From positions 2,581,555-2,627,699 of the forward strand of contig NZ_LSKU01000001.1 of the NCBI RefSeq assembly GCF_001561915.1: 46,145 nt of DNA, in the 5' to 3' direction. Under the pieces are notes generated by a model. That model was not told the DNA's origin. It searched no databases and saw nothing but the letters and a program-made list of their open reading frames with translations. This stretch comes from Tepidibacillus decaturensis. Lineage in GTDB: Bacteria > Bacillota > Bacilli > Tepidibacillales > Tepidibacillaceae. Positions 6,911-38,669 of the stretch are shown one piece after another. Numbering within the stretch: the first letter of the stretch is position 1; every line of letters starts with the position of its first letter. A program made the position numbers and the translations under genes.

Positions 6911-6938
6911 AAAAAAATAGAGGCTCTAATGAGCCTCT
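6911..6938 (-). terminator. Attenuator terminator upstream of aroF
   Basis: On the minus strand AGAGGCTC (6931-6938), a four-base loop and GAGCCTCT (6919-6926) form a perfect 8-bp stem followed by one A and seven Ts (6911-6917). It lies after the stop codon of the Phe/Tyr-rich leader peptide and before the aroF ribosome binding site. That position is expected for an attenuator rather than an end-of-operon terminator. Confidence 0.85.
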
Positions 6939-6963
6939 TATGAATAAATTCAAGATTAAGCTT

Positions 6964-7089
6964 TTATTCAATACTCATTAAAAAAGGTAGTTTTCGTTTT
7001 TTATAACCCAAAAAACCAGCGCTAAAATAAAAGCCCCAGCTAAAAAAGTAGTTATAAAATCGATTCCCTTTTTTAATATTCGTAAGCAT
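6964..7089 (-). CDS. Aromatic-amino-acid leader peptide controlling aroF-pheA attenuation
   Basis: 41-codon open frame with ATG at 7089 and GGAG seven bases upstream. Twelve of its 41 residues are aromatic: seven Phe, four Tyr and one Trp. Residues 11-22 read FYNYFFSWGFYF. It lies between a consensus promoter (7137-7165) and an intrinsic terminator (6911-6938) just ahead of aroF. In leader-peptide attenuation a ribosome stalled at codons for the scarce amino acid lets an antiterminator fold form. Within the leader RNA, nine bases at the aromatic codon cluster (7026-7034) are fully complementary to nine at the stop codon (6960-6968). This is a candidate for the pairing that stalling would disrupt. 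The role is inferred from composition and layout. Confidence 0.8.
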   Translation of the reverse strand: MLTNIKKGNRFYNYFFSWGFYFSAGFLGYKKRKLPFLMSIE

Positions 7090-7136
7090 GGTTTAACTCC
7101 AACGCCTTTCTTGAACAGTTGTGAAAATTTAAACTA

Positions 7137-7165
7137 ATTTTAACCCTTTAAAGTGTGTGTGTCAA
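7137..7165 (-). promoter_or_regulatory. Sigma-A promoter of the aroF leader
   Basis: TTGACA (7160-7165) and TAAAAT (7137-7142) are separated by exactly 17 bases on the minus strand. The -10 lies about 47 bases before the leader peptide start. The -35 lies just beyond the tyrA stop codon, so aroF has its own promoter but can also receive read-through from tyrA. Confidence 0.8.
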
Positions 7166-7168
7166 CCC

Positions 7169-8251
7169 TTATTTAAAAACAAGATATTCATGTTTTTGTA
7201 AAACTTGATAAGCAGAGACTTGATCTAAACGATTTTCAAGAATAATTTTTAGGCAACCATTTTCAAATTCCCGATTATGAATGATTCCGATATTTTTAAT
7301 ATTGATCTGATGTTCGTAAAGTAAGGTTGAGATCTTGGCAATCATGCCAGGCCGATCTTCGATATCTACAATTAAAGCATATTGCTTGGGGATATCTGTG
7401 TTTACCGTATCTACGATTTGGTCTCTCATCTCTTTTGCCTTTGAAAAATAGGTAAACAGATAATCGTTGTTCTCTTCACGTAATCGTTGTTTATATTCAT
7501 CAATGGTTGTAAGAAGCTGTTTTAATACTAGATCGATTTTTTCTTTATTACTCAAACTAATATGTTGCCATAAATGAGGACTTGATGAAGCAATACGTGT
7601 AATATCTTTAAATCCTCCAGCTGCTAATTTGATTAACACCTCTTTATGATCAAACTCTTTTATCATATGCACCAATGCAGAAGCTATAATATGCGGAACA
7701 TGACTAATAACAGCTGTAAATAAGTCATGCTGTTCTGCATCCATGGTAATTGGCATCGCCCCAATCGCATCGATCATTTCATATAAAAGGGTGATTTTTT
7801 CTTCTTTGGATTGCTCTAATGGTGTGAGAATAAAATAGGCATTTTCAAACAAATGGCCTTTTGAATGGATATAACCGGATTTTTCCGAGCCAACCATTGG
7901 ATGCCCACCTATAAAATCATAGTTTACCTTTGCTGCTAGCTGCATAACTTGCCCTTTGGTACTACCAATATCGATGACAGTAGCCGTATCCTTTACTTTG
8001 CCATCAATTCTTTCCATCCATTGTAAGGTGATTTCAATCGGTGTACAAAAGATAATCAGATCAAAAACTTCCCAAGATAAGGTTTCTAAATGATTTAATC
8101 CATATTGGATTGTTCGTTCGGCCATAGCAGTTTCTATAGTTGTTTGATCTTGGTCCACTCCCGTAATGGTTACATCCCACTTACTTTGTAATGCCTTTGC
8201 TAAAGATCCCCCCATAAGACCTAGACCAATGATTGCAATTTGTTTTCCCAA
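7169..8251 (-). CDS. tyrA: Prephenate dehydrogenase with C-terminal ACT domain
   Basis: 360-residue NAD-dependent enzyme converting prephenate to 4-hydroxyphenylpyruvate for tyrosine synthesis. The Rossmann motif GLGLMGGSL starts at residue 9. The substrate region GGHPMVGSEKSG and the helical domain segment ISHVPHIIASALVH follow. The last 70 residues form an ACT domain (LIVDIEDRPGMIAKISTLL). The frame stays open about 100 codons upstream, but that part is Lys/Asn-rich and unlike any TyrA. The start chosen is TTG at 8251, preceded by GGGAGAAGGAGA, which puts the Rossmann strand at the amino end as in homologues. It stands upstream of the attenuator-controlled aroF-pheA unit, forming an aromatic amino acid cluster. 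Confidence 0.92.
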   Translation of the reverse strand: MGKQIAIIGLGLMGGSLAKALQSKWDVTITGVDQDQTTIETAMAERTIQYGLNHLETLSWEVFDLIIFCTPIEITLQWMERIDGKVKDTATVIDIGSTKGQVMQLAAKVNYDFIGGHPMVGSEKSGYIHSKGHLFENAYFILTPLEQSKEEKITLLYEMIDAIGAMPITMDAEQHDLFTAVISHVPHIIASALVHMIKEFDHKEVLIKLAAGGFKDITRIASSSPHLWQHISLSNKEKIDLVLKQLLTTIDEYKQRLREENNDYLFTYFSKAKEMRDQIVDTVNTDIPKQYALIVDIEDRPGMIAKISTLLYEHQINIKNIGIIHNREFENGCLKIILENRLDQVSAYQVLQKHEYLVFK

Positions 8252-8528
8252 TCTCCTTCTCCCTTTCTCATTTAGTAACATAGTTATATTATAATTTACA
8301 GCTTTTATGTTTAAAAGCATTAAATTACTATTTTTCTTTTTAAATTTTTGATTTTGCTTATTTTTCTGATTATTGCTAAATATATGTAATATCTTTTTTG
8401 AATATTTGTCACACCTTTTTCTTTGTTTTTGATTTATAATGTCAATTGAGGATGTGAAATGATTAACAAATAAATATATCCTTTTAAAGCATGGATAGAA
8501 GAAAATATGATCATCGGGGGAATTCATT
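8252..8528 (+). other. AT-rich divergent intergenic region
   Basis: About 277 bases between tyrA (minus) and the PQ-loop gene (plus). It is strongly AT-rich and presumably holds both promoters. A TATAAT occurs near 8434 on the plus strand and a TTGACA near 8440 on the minus strand, but neither has a convincing partner at 16-18 bases. I see no riboswitch, operator or repeat here. Confidence 0.4.
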
Positions 8529-8828
8529 ATGAGTATTTTTGAGATTGTCATGTTACTTTGTTTTGGTGCAGCATGGCCATTTTCTATTTACAAATCCTAT
8601 GAATCTAGATCTATAGAAGGTAAAAGCTTTTTATTCTTAACTATTTTACTAATAGGTTATATTGCTGGGATTTTAAATAAACTTTTCAATAGCTATGATG
8701 GGGTTATCTATTTATATATCATCAACTTTGCCATGGTTGCAACAGATATGGCATTATATATCCGTAATCGCCGTTTTCAAAACCAACATGTGCAAAAACG
8801 CCCATTACGTTCTTCACACTCGCATTAA
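8529..8828 (+). CDS. Small PQ-loop (SemiSWEET-like) membrane protein
   Basis: 99-residue protein with three hydrophobic helices at roughly residues 4-22, 34-52 and 60-77, the topology of SemiSWEET half-transporters. The segment AAWPFSIYKSYESRSIEGKS, with a proline in helix 1 and a polar loop, fits the PQ-loop family. SemiSWEETs dimerise to move sugars, but many Bacillales members of this size are uncharacterised, so the substrate is open. The ATG follows GGGGG eight bases upstream. The gene converges on the ZIP transporter gene and ends in a shared hairpin. Confidence 0.7.
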   Translation: MSIFEIVMLLCFGAAWPFSIYKSYESRSIEGKSFLFLTILLIGYIAGILNKLFNSYDGVIYLYIINFAMVATDMALYIRNRRFQNQHVQKRPLRSSHSH

Positions 8829-16719: not shown

Positions 16720-17612
16720 TTATTTTTTTATCTGCTTATCAGATACTTGCAAGAGATCAGATACAATCGACAAGTCACCAATTGGATAAATGTGAACACC
16801 TTGAACGATCCCCTTTATCTCCTCAATTAATTGTTGTGCTATCTCTATTCCTGCTTTTCTACCCCCTGTTCTACTTTGGCAATCATCTCCGATGAAATAT
16901 GGATACCTGGTACTTTTTCATTTAGATAATAAGCCATTTTCACACTCTTTATAGGAAGAATGCCAAAAATGACATGAACTGGTAGGCCTCTTATTTTCTC
17001 TAAAAATCGTTCTACTTGGGAAAGTTCATAAACAGGCTGAGTTTGAACAAATTCGACTCCAGACTCAATCTTTCTTTTTAGTTTTTCCACTTCAAGCTCT
17101 AGGTCATCATTTCCAGGGTTTGCAGCACCGCCGATAAAGAAATCAGTTGCGCTGTTTAAAGGATTGCCTGATAAGTCCTTTCCTTGGTTGAGTTGATAGG
17201 CAATGTTGGCTAATCCTGTCGAGTCGACTTCAAAGACTCCTTTTGCTTGTGGGTGATCTCCTCTAGCTGGTGAATCTCCTGTTAAGGTGAGGATGTTTCT
17301 AACACCTAAAGCTGCAGCACCTAATAGTTCTGATTGCAGTCCTATGATATTGCGGTCACGACAAGTTAAATGGAATATCGCCTCTATCCCCATATCCTGT
17401 TGAATCACATGTGCTAAAGCAATGGGACTCATTCGTAGTGTAGCCATGGGGCTATCTGCAATATTTACCGCATCCACAATCCCCCTCAAAAAGGTAGCCT
17501 TCTCTAAAACAGGCATTGGATTTGCTCCTTTGGGCGGTTCTAATTCTACTGTGGTGACAAATTTCCCTAACGTTAATTTTTCTTTTAATCCATGAATTTG
17601 ATAGATACTCAT
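16720..17612 (-). pseudogene. metF: Methylenetetrahydrofolate reductase, frameshifted near the C terminus
   Basis: MetF reduces methylene-THF to methyl-THF for methionine synthesis. From the ATG at 17612 the frame carries VTTVELEPPKG, the FAD-site region ILTLTGDSPARGDHP and ESGVEFVQTQPVY, then stops early at 16845 after 255 residues. The expected C-terminal helix and strand continue in the next frame as GRKAGIEIAQQLIEEIKG through GVHIYPIGDLSIVSDLL to a stop at 16720. The switch falls at five Gs (16862-16866); a sixth G would restore a 297-residue protein of normal length. It is either a real frameshift or a homopolymer error. It shares one base with the hom stop codon and ends the metX-hom-metF operon. 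Confidence 0.85.
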
Positions 17613-18931
17613 TATGATCTTCCCCCTAGCTTTATTCCTTCTTCTTCCACCCTTTCTTCATGATGACAACTTAATGCAGGATAATAGATCATTTTTGTGC
17701 GATGGTTTACGTTTTGTTTCAATGCTAAAATTTGTTCCTCATTCCCCTTTACCAGATGGCCTACCAAAAATCCCTTTTGTACAGAGATGGTTTCTCTTTT
17801 TATCATTTCTAATTCAAATTGGTGTAGCTTTACTTGCCAAAACATTTGATCTGCACTAGTCATTGGATGATGTTGCTCATGAATGATTAACCAAAATGGA
17901 TTTTCTATTGATTCTGTAACCGTGGCCGTTGTTTCTATTTCCTTTTTATGGTGATAGGAATAGGTTGGATGTTGAAGAACGTCTACTAAATCCTCTACAA
18001 TCGCACTAGCTGTAGGAAGAGAGCCTGCTCCTGGACCTTGTAAAAATAGGCGGCCAACAACATCAGTTTCAATAATGATCGCATTATCTACCCCTTCAAC
18101 ACTATACAATGGATTAGACTCTGCTAAACAGGTTGGTTCTACTCGGACATTCCAGCCTGTATCTGACTTATAAAGTGATGCAACTAGTTTCATTCGTAAG
18201 CCTAGTTCTTCAACAAGAGCCAATTGTTCCAGCGTAACCTCCGAGACCCCAATCTTTTTCACTGAAGCCCAGTTTGGTCGTTCAGGAAAGATGATGTCAC
18301 TTAAAACCATTAATTTATAAAAAGCATCCCAGCCTTCAATATCATTTGTAGGATCTGCTTCTGCAAAACCTGCTGCTTGTGCTTCCTTTAACGCCTGTTT
18401 AAAGGAAATTCGTTTTTTCCTCATTTGACTCAGAATATAATTCGAAGTCCCGTTTATAATCCCTTGGATTTTTGTAATTTGATTCACTTGAAGCAATTGT
18501 TTAATCGTCCGAATAATAGGAATTCCACCAGCTACACTAGCTTCAAAGGCTAGCATTACCCCATATTGTTTCGCGATTTCCTTTAATTCAGCTCCATTAA
18601 ATGCCATTAATTCTTTATTTGCTGTAATCACATGACAACCTTTTGAGAGTGCCTGAATGATATATTGATAGGCAGGATCTCTTCCCCCTATCATTTCAAT
18701 GACTACGTCTAATTTAGGTAATTGTAAAATATCCTGATAATTCGTTGTAACGAGAATAGAATCCCTCATCTCCAAAACTCGTTTCTTCTCTATATCCTGA
18801 ATCAAAATCGCAACGACTTCAACAGACTTGCCTAAGATATGTTGTAATTGTTTTTGATGGGAAATGATCGTTTGATATACACCAGTTCCCACCGTACCCA
18901 AACCTAGTAAGGCTACCTTAATCGATTCCAT
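17612..18931 (-). CDS. hom: Homoserine dehydrogenase
   Basis: 439-residue enzyme that reduces aspartate semialdehyde to homoserine. The nucleotide-binding motif GLGTVGTGVYQTI starts at residue 10. VITANKELMA carries the catalytic Lys region. GGIPIIRTI, GIINGTSNYIL and the substrate-binding EAQAAGFAEADPTNDIEGWDA follow. A C-terminal region of about 100 residues occupies the ACT position but is divergent. The ATG lies inside the end of metX (14-base overlap) and the stop shares a base with metF, so the three genes are translationally coupled. The S-box places this copy under methionine/SAM control, suggesting it feeds methionine specifically and that another hom may serve threonine. Confidence 0.93.
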   Translation of the reverse strand: MESIKVALLGLGTVGTGVYQTIISHQKQLQHILGKSVEVVAILIQDIEKKRVLEMRDSILVTTNYQDILQLPKLDVVIEMIGGRDPAYQYIIQALSKGCHVITANKELMAFNGAELKEIAKQYGVMLAFEASVAGGIPIIRTIKQLLQVNQITKIQGIINGTSNYILSQMRKKRISFKQALKEAQAAGFAEADPTNDIEGWDAFYKLMVLSDIIFPERPNWASVKKIGVSEVTLEQLALVEELGLRMKLVASLYKSDTGWNVRVEPTCLAESNPLYSVEGVDNAIIIETDVVGRLFLQGPGAGSLPTASAIVEDLVDVLQHPTYSYHHKKEIETTATVTESIENPFWLIIHEQHHPMTSADQMFWQVKLHQFELEMIKRETISVQKGFLVGHLVKGNEEQILALKQNVNHRTKMIYYPALSCHHEERVEEEGIKLGGRS

Positions 18932-20012
18932 ATAAACCCTCCTTTACAATCGATCCCCATTTATCAAATTCGACTAAAAAACCATCATGGCCATAAATCG
19001 TATCGATCTCATAAAAATTTGCATGACCTCCTAATTGACGATAGGCCTCTGTTAGCTCCTTTAAACTTTCTGGCGGATAAAGCAAATCCCCTTTATAGGC
19101 AATAGCGATCATAGGGGCTTTTAATAATTTCAAGGCTTCTTTCCATCCTCCACGGCCACGACCGATGTCATGACTATCCATCGCCTTAAGTAAATATAGA
19201 TAGCTATTGGCATCAAAACGTTTTGTTAATTTATCTCCTTGATAACTAAGATAAGATTCTATTTCAAACGTAATTTCATCGTGGGAATTCCCCCACTCAT
19301 TACGAAGGCTCCTCTGAAAACGTTGATTATACAACTCTTGTGAACGATAAGTAATCATTCCTAACATACGTGCAAGACTTAATCCATGATCAGGTTTATC
19401 TTCCAATGGATAATTTCCATGATTCCATTTAGGGTCATGAATAATAGCAAAGCGGGACATAGCATTAAAAGCGATGGCATAGTCACTTAAATAAGAAGTC
19501 GCAGCAAGGGGAAATAGCTTATCCATAAAGGTAGGGTAAAGAATTCCCCATTCCAAAACTTGCATTCCACCTAATGACCCTCCAATCACTGCATGCACAT
19601 GATCAATACCCATTTTCCTTAATGCTTTGTATTGAGCATGAACCATATCCCTGATGGTAACAAAGGGAAATGAAGCACGATAAATCTCTTTATTGTCAGG
19701 GTTTATACTTAAAGGACCTGTTGTACCATTACATCCACCAATCACGTTTGTCGTAATCACTTGATACTCATTCGTATCAATCCATTGATAGGGGCCAATC
19801 ATCCCAGACCACCAACCAGATGTCCCATCATTTCCATAAGCAAATTGATTTCCTGTCAAACCATGACACACTAATATAACAGGTGCACCAATGGAGCCTA
19901 CCCTCTCATAAGCTATATGAGCTTGTGGTAAAATCGTTCCAGATTCAAGCATTAAATCTCCAATTTCTATTTTTCCATACTCATAATGAAGATTGATCTC
20001 TGCCACCGCCAT
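18918..20012 (-). CDS. metX: Homoserine O-acetyltransferase (MetX family)
   Basis: 364-residue alpha/beta-hydrolase enzyme that activates homoserine for methionine synthesis. CHGLTGNQFA forms the oxyanion region, GGSLGGMQVLEW holds the nucleophilic Ser, YKGDLLYPPE the Asp and YGHDGFLVE the His. The motifs AYERVGSIGAPVILV and VIGGCNGTTGPLS are standard for the family. MetX sequences are usually acetyl-CoA-dependent; a succinyl-specific variant cannot be excluded by eye. The ATG follows GAGGAGGAGTAAGG. It is the first gene after an S-box leader (20124-20226) with two terminators, so it is expressed when S-adenosylmethionine is low. Confidence 0.93.
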   Translation of the reverse strand: MAVAEINLHYEYGKIEIGDLMLESGTILPQAHIAYERVGSIGAPVILVCHGLTGNQFAYGNDGTSGWWSGMIGPYQWIDTNEYQVITTNVIGGCNGTTGPLSINPDNKEIYRASFPFVTIRDMVHAQYKALRKMGIDHVHAVIGGSLGGMQVLEWGILYPTFMDKLFPLAATSYLSDYAIAFNAMSRFAIIHDPKWNHGNYPLEDKPDHGLSLARMLGMITYRSQELYNQRFQRSLRNEWGNSHDEITFEIESYLSYQGDKLTKRFDANSYLYLLKAMDSHDIGRGRGGWKEALKLLKAPMIAIAYKGDLLYPPESLKELTEAYRQLGGHANFYEIDTIYGHDGFLVEFDKWGSIVKEGLYGID

Positions 20013-20110: not shown

Positions 20111-20123
20111 GATCGCCGCTCTT

Positions 20124-20226
20124 CTTATCTATCAGAACATGAATGTTCTGCAGGAATTGGCACCGCGTTTTATTTAAACCGGTTGCCGGGCTTCATAGGG
20201 CCAGTCCCTCCGCCTCTCTGGATAAG
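20124..20226 (-). promoter_or_regulatory. SAM-I riboswitch (S-box) controlling metX-hom-metF
   Basis: The minus strand shows the full S-box order: CTTATCcAGAG at the start, GGCGGAGGGACTGGCCC, GAAGCCCGGCAACC, then GGTGCCAATTCCTGC and AGAACATTC-type hairpins, closing with GATAAG pairing back to CTTATC. S-adenosylmethionine binding stabilises the aptamer and permits the terminator at 20082-20110. Regulation of methionine synthesis genes is the established role of this class. Confidence 0.96.
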
Positions 20227-20258
20227 AATTTCCTTTATTAAATTAAATGATTAATACA

Positions 20259-37019: not shown

Positions 37020-38402
37020 TTAAAACTGAACCTTCTTTTCTAGGTATTCCTTTAATTCAGCAATAGGAATTCGTTGTTGTTCCATGGTATCTCGATCTCG
37101 CACTGTAACCATCTGATCTTGCTTTGAATCAAAGTCGTAAGTAATACAAAACGGTGTACCAATTTCATCGTGGCGACGGTAACGTTTACCGATTGAACCT
37201 GAATCATCAAAATCAACCATGAAATATTTTGAAAGCTCTTCAAAGATACCTCTAGCCTCTTCCGATAGTTTTTTCGATAATGGCAGGATCGCAGCTTTGT
37301 ATGGAGCAAGTGCTGGATGGAAGTGCATCACAGTACGTGTGGTTCCATCTTCAAGTTCTTCCTCATCATAAGCATCGATAAAGAAAGCTAATGCTACACG
37401 ATCCGCTCCAAGAGAAGGTTCAATACAATAAGGAATGTAACGTTCATTGGTTTCTGGATCGATATAGTTGAAGTCTTCACCAGAATATTGCATATGCTGC
37501 TTCAAATCATAATCTGTACGGGAAGCAATACCCCATAATTCGCCCCAACCAAATGGAAACTTATATTCAAAATCGGTGGTTGCATTACTATAATGAGACA
37601 ATTCTTCTTCTGAATGATCGCGCATTCGGATGTTTTCCTTTTTCATTTCTAGGCTGAGTAGCCATTTTTCTGCATATTGCTTCCAATAATCAAACCATTT
37701 TAATTCTTCACCTGGCTTGCAGAAAAACTCAAGCTCCATTTGTTCAAATTCACGTGTACGGAAGGTAAAATTCCCTGGAGTAATCTCGTTACGAAAGCTT
37801 TTACCGATTTGAGCGATACCAAAGGGAAGCTTTTTGCGCATGGTTCGCTGTACATTTTTAAAGTTCACAAAAATTCCTTGTGCTGTTTCTGGACGTAAGT
37901 ATATTTCATTCGTACTTGTTTCTGTAACCCCTTGGTGGGTCTTAAACATTAAATTAAACTGACGGATATTGGTAAAATTATGACTTCCACACTCTGGACA
38001 AGCGATATCATGTTCTTTAATCAATTGTTCCATTCTCTCAAATGGTAATCCATCAACGACCATTTCGATTCCTTTTTCGTCTAAGGCATTTTCGATTAAC
38101 TTATCCGCCCGATGCCTCGCTTTACAGTCCTTACAATCGATCATTGGATCATTAAAATTACCAAGGTGTCCAGAAGCTTCCCAGGTTCTCGGATTCATTA
38201 AAATAGCTGCATCAAGACCGACGTTATAAGGGGATTCTTGCACGTATTTTTTCCACCATGCTCTTTTAATATTGTTTTTCAATTCGGTTCCTAGTGGACC
38301 ATAGTCCCATGTATTCGCTAGTCCACCGTAAATTTCTGATCCTGGAAAAATAAAACCACGATGTTTAGCATGGGCTACAATTTGCTCCATTGTTACATTC
38401 AT
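37020..38402 (-). CDS. glyS: Glycyl-tRNA synthetase, single-chain class II type
   Basis: 460-residue class II synthetase of the homodimeric alpha2 type, unlike the GlyQ/GlyS heterotetramer of B. subtilis. [20 protein letters not shown] at the amino end, a zinc-binding CKDC..CPECGSH insertion, the [13 protein letters not shown] motif 2 region, the [18 protein letters not shown] segment and a C-terminal anticodon-binding domain are visible. The frame is open to 38453, but the ATG at 38402 follows AAGGAGCGAATCAAA and matches the usual start. A T-box leader with a GGC specifier lies just upstream, so uncharged tRNA-Gly induces it. Confidence 0.95.
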
Positions 38403-38457
38403 TTTGATTCGCTCCTTATCTATTACTATTCCAATTACTTTGAGGGACCCCACGAAA

Positions 38458-38663
38458 CGAAAAAACTCTCGCCTCTAGGCCACCAAGCCTAGGGACGAGA
38501 GTTGATATTCCCGCGGTTCCACCCTAGTTGATACACAGATGTGCATCCTCTTTTCAAAAGCAACTCCAGACTGCCGTTTCACTGAATCTTTTTGCCAGGC
38601 TTTCACCCTCCCTAGCTCGCTTTAAAAAAGGATTTCAGTTACTATTGTCCTTTCATCGTTACC
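38458..38663 (-). promoter_or_regulatory. T-box riboswitch upstream of glyS, glycine specifier
   Basis: The minus strand carries the T-box sequence AGGGTGGAACCGCGG (38511-38525). After it comes a 17-pair terminator (38464-38480 with 38487-38503) ending in TTTTTT. Upstream is Stem I with GCTAGGGAGGGTGAAAGCC and, near its 3' side, GGC followed by A at 38573-38575, the likely glycine specifier codon. Uncharged tRNA-Gly pairing with both sites favours the antiterminator. Confidence 0.93.
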
Positions 38664-38669
38664 ATTTAC

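Follow-up and report, generated by a model that had tools for sequence, protein, structure and literature searches.

The aroF-pheA locus of Tepidibacillus decaturensis raises the question of whether a bacterium of the class Bacilli may control a DAHP synthase gene by means of a translated leader peptide. In textbook accounts, classical attenuation by leader peptides belongs mainly to the Proteobacteria, while the Firmicutes are associated with T-boxes and TRAP. A first-pass annotation of the DNA stretch analyzed here (46,145 nucleotides, referred to as the window) had nevertheless proposed a Phe/Tyr leader-peptide attenuator ahead of these two genes. This proposal is upheld by comparison with relatives, in which the frame, the start codon, and the terminator are kept while the sequence changes, and the element is very probably a ribosome-mediated transcription attenuator for the supply of Phe and Tyr. 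The comparative support, which is based on sequences throughout, extends to the reading frame, the aromatic codons, the two alternative pairings of the strand termed R2 (with strand R1 and with the terminator), the hairpin P2, the terminator itself, and the association with shikimate genes.

The components named in the annotation, i.e., the promoter, the ribosome-bound frame of 41 codons with 12 aromatic residues, and the 8-bp terminator before aroF, were all found on the minus strand (Table 1), and the gene names aroF and pheA are right by domain content. Scanning of 4 kb yielded 13 promoter candidates, of which this one scores best; it adjoins the stop codon of tyrA, and any read-through transcript from tyrA would cross the attenuator as well. 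The annotated start of tyrA is probably too early, because the domain match begins only at about residue 100. The leader frame translates to MLTNIKKGNRFYNYFFSWGFYFSAGFLGYKKRKLPFLMSIE, whose aromatic residues comprise 7 F, 4 Y, and 1 W, with 9 of the 12 located within codons 11-22. Nine aromatic residues in 12 codons represent the top value among about 775 short frames of the whole window, and 200 dinucleotide shuffles of the upstream region never attained the aromatic density of the leader (p = 0.005); the leader RNA is also more stable than its shuffled versions (z -3.2). Terminators alone (2 found, 2.2 expected) and promoter-like sites alone (13 found, 16.5 expected) occur at chance level, and the significance of these two elements derives from their retention in relatives.

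Table 1. Coordinates of the predicted attenuator components and adjacent genes in the window.
Feature	Position	Strand	Sequence and remarks
Promoter, sigma-70-type	7165-7137 (TTGACA 7165-7160; TAAAAT 7142-7137)	minus	17-nt spacer; 11/12 consensus matches
Ribosome binding site	7100-7097	minus	GGAG; 7 nt upstream of the ATG at 7089
Leader peptide frame	7089-6967; stop codon 6966-6964	minus	41 codons plus stop
Strand R1	7077-7067	minus	AUUAAAAAAGG; codons 5-8; putative anti-antiterminator, partner R2; covariation
Hairpin P2, 5' strand	7041-7032	minus	AGCUGGGGCU; S17 to F20; inside the aromatic codons
Hairpin P2, 3' strand	7023-7014	minus	AGCGCUGGUU; S23 to F26; inside the aromatic codons
Strand R2	6987-6977	minus	CCUUUUUUAAU; codons 35-38; partner R1; covariation
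Antiterminator strand	6983-6973	minus	UUUUAAUGAGU; overlaps R2; partner 6934-6924 in the terminator
Antiterminator partner	6934-6924	minus	GCUCAUUAGAG; end of 5' arm, loop, and start of 3' arm
Intrinsic terminator	6938-6919 (hairpin); 6938-6911 (with tail)	minus	8 bp, AGAGGCTC-ATTA-GAGCCTCT plus T-rich tail ATTTTTTT; covarying stem
aroF	6883-5870	minus	DAHP synthase, 337 aa, N-terminal ferredoxin-like regulatory domain; first gene under control
pheA	5844-4711	minus	377 aa, chorismate mutase, prephenate dehydratase, and ACT domain; second gene
tyrA	7169-8551	minus	Prephenate dehydrogenase; upstream of the leader

Two sets of leaders were compared, namely 19 leaders aligned with MAFFT (alignment A1) and a larger set of 93 leaders collected with a model designated R1. 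The aligned aroF upstream regions retain the runs of aromatic codons despite sequence change, a check proposed in the annotation. In alignment A1, the ATG is preceded by GGAGG or GGAG in nearly all relatives and is followed by strand R1, the core of aromatic codons, the AAUGAG motif, and a GCUCAUUA terminator. The gaps between the ATG and P2 are mostly multiples of three, and the core is common to the window and to Clostridium and relatives (e.g., MENIIRKGISQKFYFYFFSWSFYYFSAGYFWFKK...ISNEF). The switch itself turned out to differ from the one initially suspected, a 9-base complementarity between positions 7034-7026 and 6968-6960: this pairing is complete in the window (9/9), but it drops to 7/9 in the nearest relative, genome G003, and to 3-6/9 in the remaining 17 leaders, and was rejected as an apparent AU-rich coincidence.

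As judged from the alignments, the conserved switch consists of an R1:R2 pairing competing with an R2:terminator pairing, plus the P2 hairpin within the aromatic codons. The R1:R2 partners are AUUAAAAAAGG and CCUUUUUUAAU in the window and CAUUAGAAAGGGAAUA and UAUUCCUAUUUCUAAUG in Clostridium. Double-sided changes occur in 8 of the 15 R1:R2 pairs in the MAFFT alignment, with a covariation score of 0.262 versus 0.206 ± 0.018 in shuffles (0/500 reaching it) and at most 0.115 for slid strands. For R1:R2 and P2 together in the 93 leaders (alignment A3), 15 of 18 pairs show double-sided changes and the score amounts to 0.265 versus 0.178 ± 0.006 (slid strands at most 0.115), in agreement with the MAFFT alignment; note that kinship among the sequences inflates these shuffle tests and that A3, unlike the MAFFT alignment, was fitted to the model. 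The competing antiterminator joins UAAUGAG of R2 with CUCAUUA, which forms the end of the 5' arm and the loop of the terminator: 95% of the cells are paired, versus at most 49% for slid strands, and the pairing beats shuffled R2 at p ≤ 0.05 in 76 of 82 distinct leaders in a run-based test. Compensated antiterminator pairs are represented by UGAUGAG:CUCAUCA, CAAAUGAG:CUCAUUUG, CUAAGAA:UUCUUAG, and GUUCCAA:UUGGAAC; leaders with such compensation include L161, L168, L199, and L114, and by eye L205. The terminator stem also covaries among relatives. The leaders thus combine terminator, antiterminator, and anti-antiterminator pairings that exclude one another and covary, and a conserved intrinsic terminator separates the leader from the first structural gene. 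Swapping leaders and terminators between species gave 11 of 46 cases at p ≤ 0.05 by total duplex energy, a measure by which long segments pair by chance. Four leaders outside the family with quite different peptides (L039, L062, L084, and L088) still have a stretch that can pair with the loop of their own terminator, and the strength of this pairing in such unrelated aromatic leaders of other classes reaches z -6.2 in L084 and z -3.9 in L039.

The first part of the leader is kept as protein-coding sequence, as concluded from the stop-free frame, the in-frame aromatic codons, and the phase of P2. No in-frame stop precedes R2 in 92 of 93 leaders, as compared with means of 2.3 and 4.0 stops in the two alternative frames. 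Aromatic residues make up a fraction of 0.33 in frame versus 0.13 and 0.18 out of frame, and in 92-93 of 93 leaders P2 stays in phase with the start codon, insertions notwithstanding. AUGAG, on the other hand, is found in all three leader frames (56/24/4), so that R2 is kept as RNA. The leaders contain a translatable frame with a ribosome binding site, in which the codons for the end products are enriched and conserved, with means of 7.5 F and 5.5 Y and at least 10 aromatic residues in each of the 93 leaders. The joint presence of Phe and Tyr codons pointed out in the annotation recurs in 93/93 leaders, and in 78/93 both are already represented within the first three aromatic codons that follow R1. 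Because both codons occur in every leader and mostly early, joint sensing of Phe and Tyr is likely.

The conservation of the core F-S-W-G-F/Y-Y-F-S-A-G-Y in Clostridia, in the family of the window, and partly in Negativicutes might alternatively point to a TnaC-like arrest peptide, whose own sequence would stall the ribosome on free Phe or Tyr and not upon a shortage of charged tRNA. This appears very unlikely, since the conserved core is largely accounted for by hairpin P2, F and Y swap freely at the first positions, and leaders of other classes retain the aromatic density and the terminator pairing without this peptide. Even less probable is an RNA that binds a protein or a ligand (TRAP-like, T-box, or unknown riboswitch) and is translatable by accident. 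Such an element would agree with the strong conserved RNA structure and with the T-boxes governing homologous aroF genes in some leaderless Bacilli, as observed directly upstream of aroF in L003, L008, and L009, but it would need neither the frame nor the start codon, the phase, or the aromatic codons, all of which are kept. Furthermore, no Rfam 15 family reached its gathering score in the leader region of the window or in 20 leader-bearing loci, the T-box model RF00230 gave no match at the window locus or in the 20 leader-bearing loci scanned, and the Phe_leader model RF01859 scored 14.6 bits at the window locus, on the wrong strand and below its gathering score of 55. A small functional protein, with the terminator as a constitutive damper without sensing, would agree with the conservation of the frame and its ribosome binding site by sequence, but is equally improbable: the C-terminal end of the peptide is variable both in length and in reading frame while AUGAG persists as RNA, a shikimate gene always lies downstream where callable, and R2 covaries with the terminator.

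For the ribosome-mediated attenuator favored here, we infer the direction of control and stalling as its signal as follows. RNA polymerase would initiate at the promoter, and a ribosome would translate the leader. With ample Phe and Tyr, the ribosome would reach the stop codon beside R2 and thereby occupy R2, and without a ribosome R1 would pair again with R2; in both states the terminator would be out of the reach of R2 and would form, leaving aroF-pheA switched off. If Phe-tRNA or Tyr-tRNA were short, the ribosome would stall at the first aromatic codons (F11/Y12), just past R1, and would mask R1, so that the free R2 (UUUUAAUGAG) could pair with CUCAUUAGAG of the terminator and allow read-through into aroF-pheA. 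Pause hairpins are known from proteobacterial attenuators, and P2 would probably act in the same way by keeping polymerase and ribosome in step. In 48 of the 93 leaders, 17 nt separate R1 from the first aromatic codon, and a ribosome waiting at this codon should therefore mask or abut R1.

Folding of partial transcripts, which represent the state just before the 3' arm of the terminator is made, gave almost no antiterminator without a ribosome and none with a ribosome over R2. With a ribosome placed at the first aromatic codon, the predicted antiterminator rose (p 7e-11 in a paired test), in the window from 0.00 to 0.27. Among these folds with a stalled ribosome, which the annotation had proposed, values above 0.2 were obtained in only 32-43 of 86 leaders with an upstream footprint of 17 or 20 nt, and in 24/86 with a 14-nt footprint; no antiterminator formed in G004, and rarely any for stalls deep in the aromatic core, which accounts only in part for the large number of aromatic codons retained. 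In full-length equilibrium folds with ribosome blocks, the terminator wins nearly always, and the switch must therefore be kinetic. The direction seen in the folds agrees with classical attenuation, the size of the effect not being proven by folding.

With regard to distribution, aroF homologues were retrieved from a wide range of Firmicutes. Where enough upstream DNA was available, roughly half of these homologues or more are preceded by a short frame rich in aromatic codons, in most cases with a terminator behind it. A single aroF relative turned up in a scan of viral sequences. The model matches 148 of 226 genomes of the order of Clostridium magnum, where the control can hardly be called uncommon as initially assumed, but it is indeed rare in the class of the window, with matches in 4 of 399 genomes (the window genome, G003, G004, and weakly G015). 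Homologous leaders thus occur in three genomes of the family of the window and weakly in one other Bacilli genome. Of 24 loci read from Negativicutes-type genomes, 18 have leader-like aromatic frames, whose cores are of the kind FSFYFSTGFFA. The first gene after the 93 leaders is aroF in 76 cases, aroB in 6, an aroK-like gene in 4, an AroG-type DAHP synthase gene in 3, and aroE in 1, with no call in 3, i.e., a shikimate gene wherever callable (aroB, aroK, aroG, and aroE were named by sequence inspection). The leaders ahead of aroB are L141, L154, L156, L158, L164, and L173, and the operon following L141 reads aroB-aroA-aroC-pheA by sequence. C. magnum (L136, L137, L138) and C. thailandense (L139, L140) contain four leaders per genome, which precede aroF and the aroK-like, AroG-type DAHP synthase, and aroE genes and represent a predicted shikimate regulon made up of dispersed attenuators. 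In the aroF tree, the genes of the window, G003, and G015 form one clade with the leader-bearing clostridial aroF genes (support 100/97), while aroF of G004 joins that of a Peptococcaceae MAG and the leaderless Bacilli aroF genes fall outside the clostridial leader-bearing clade. Because of this grouping, leader and aroF appear to have moved together by horizontal transfer. It is probable that all these leaders belong to one homologous Phe/Tyr attenuator family without an Rfam 15 match, which spans Clostridiales, Negativicutes, and a few Bacilli, has been transferred together with aroF and copied before aroB, aroK, aroG, and aroE, and constitutes a dispersed regulon of up to four leaders per genome with joint sensing of Phe and Tyr.

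Other leaders were noted before aroF as well. A second type in clostridial MAGs, some labeled Ruminococcaceae (L052, L065, L067, L071, and L076), has the core G-W-x-R-F-x-G-x-G-x-F-A-W-E-K, a hairpin of 12 bp inside it (AGCUGGAAUCGA/UCGGUUUCGGCU in L065, for example), and a terminator of the GCUCAUUG type. Short Tyr/Phe-rich leaders such as FFYRYYYFFHLKK and FYYSAYYYYSYYATGK, unlike the modeled core, occur in other clostridial MAGs and one Treponema MAG (L061, L085, L088, L096, and L101).

The pheL/pheA attenuator of Enterobacteria combines a Phe-rich leader peptide, mutually exclusive hairpins, and an intrinsic terminator in front of an aromatic operon. The leader of the window resembles it in its aromatic-rich peptide, its exclusive hairpins and terminator, and the aromatic biosynthesis operon behind it, but differs by containing both Phe and Tyr codons, by having DAHP synthase as the first gene, and by a separate R1:R2 helix around the hairpin in the aromatic codons. 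The T-box found before homologous aroF genes shares with the leader the gene, the tRNA-charging signal, and the choice between terminator and antiterminator; unlike the leader, it senses tRNA directly, without a ribosome. T-boxes gave 16 matches in the window genome. In the window, a T-box (38488-38665, minus strand; 92.4 bits, slightly below the gathering score of 93) lies directly upstream of a probable glycyl-tRNA synthetase gene (37020-38453, minus strand), and a SAM riboswitch (20122-20228, minus strand) was recognized upstream of homoserine O-acetyltransferase-like (18918-20012) and homoserine dehydrogenase-like (17612-18931) genes.

The annotation had further considered the control possibly undescribed, which does not hold in two respects. 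Leader-peptide attenuation for other amino acids and operons is already known in Bacillales from the Leu-rich attenuator peptide of the S. aureus ilv-leu operon, which has experimental support (PMC5794164), and from the His leader before hisZ/hisS* in bacilli (PMC2965389); a survey from 2005 cites attenuators for Phe in other bacteria, but none of the classical type for synthetase genes of Firmicutes (PMC1262725). A peptide leader for DAHP synthase was likewise already predicted in Acholeplasma: the uORFC-13-1 motif combines a predicted uORF containing Phe codons, located before aroF, with an intrinsic terminator, and attenuation was proposed for it. Its 24 examples come from Acholeplasma and environmental sequences only, and the presence of one or more Phe codons was noted (Brewer et al., 2021; PMC8632094). 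As compared by description, the motif and the leader of the window share the position before aroF and the terminator. A MAG labeled Acholeplasmataceae (L050) was rejected as a link between them, because its aroF falls with Acidaminococcaceae in the tree and because Pelosinus and Sporomusa (G414, G415) belong to the class that was searched on the basis of its genome. This label is probably wrong, the kin being Acidaminococcaceae/Negativicutes; the MAG carries two tandem aroF copies. A study whose five analyzed genomes include Clostridium novyi presents, in its Fig. 6b, two uORF candidates that are linked to shikimate genes and contain F and Y codons (Stav et al., 2019; PMC6429828). They share the shikimate linkage and the Phe and Tyr codons with the leader of the window and may be the same element, the text giving neither their sequence nor the source genome. 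A literature search with few subscription papers in reach yielded no paper describing the leader family mapped here. The kind of mechanism is thus already known in Firmicutes, while its extent as a widespread, transferable Phe/Tyr family without an Rfam 15 model looks new.

The family is notable for its breadth, mobility, and regulon-like use, and the covariance model is ready for use in annotation. The occurrence of either the leader or a T-box before homologous aroF genes represents a clear swap of one sensor of charged tRNA for another. A homologous, covarying leader is the common arrangement before DAHP synthase in the order of Clostridium magnum, and Phe/Tyr control of the shikimate flux is predicted for industrially used clostridia such as C. 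tyrobutyricum.
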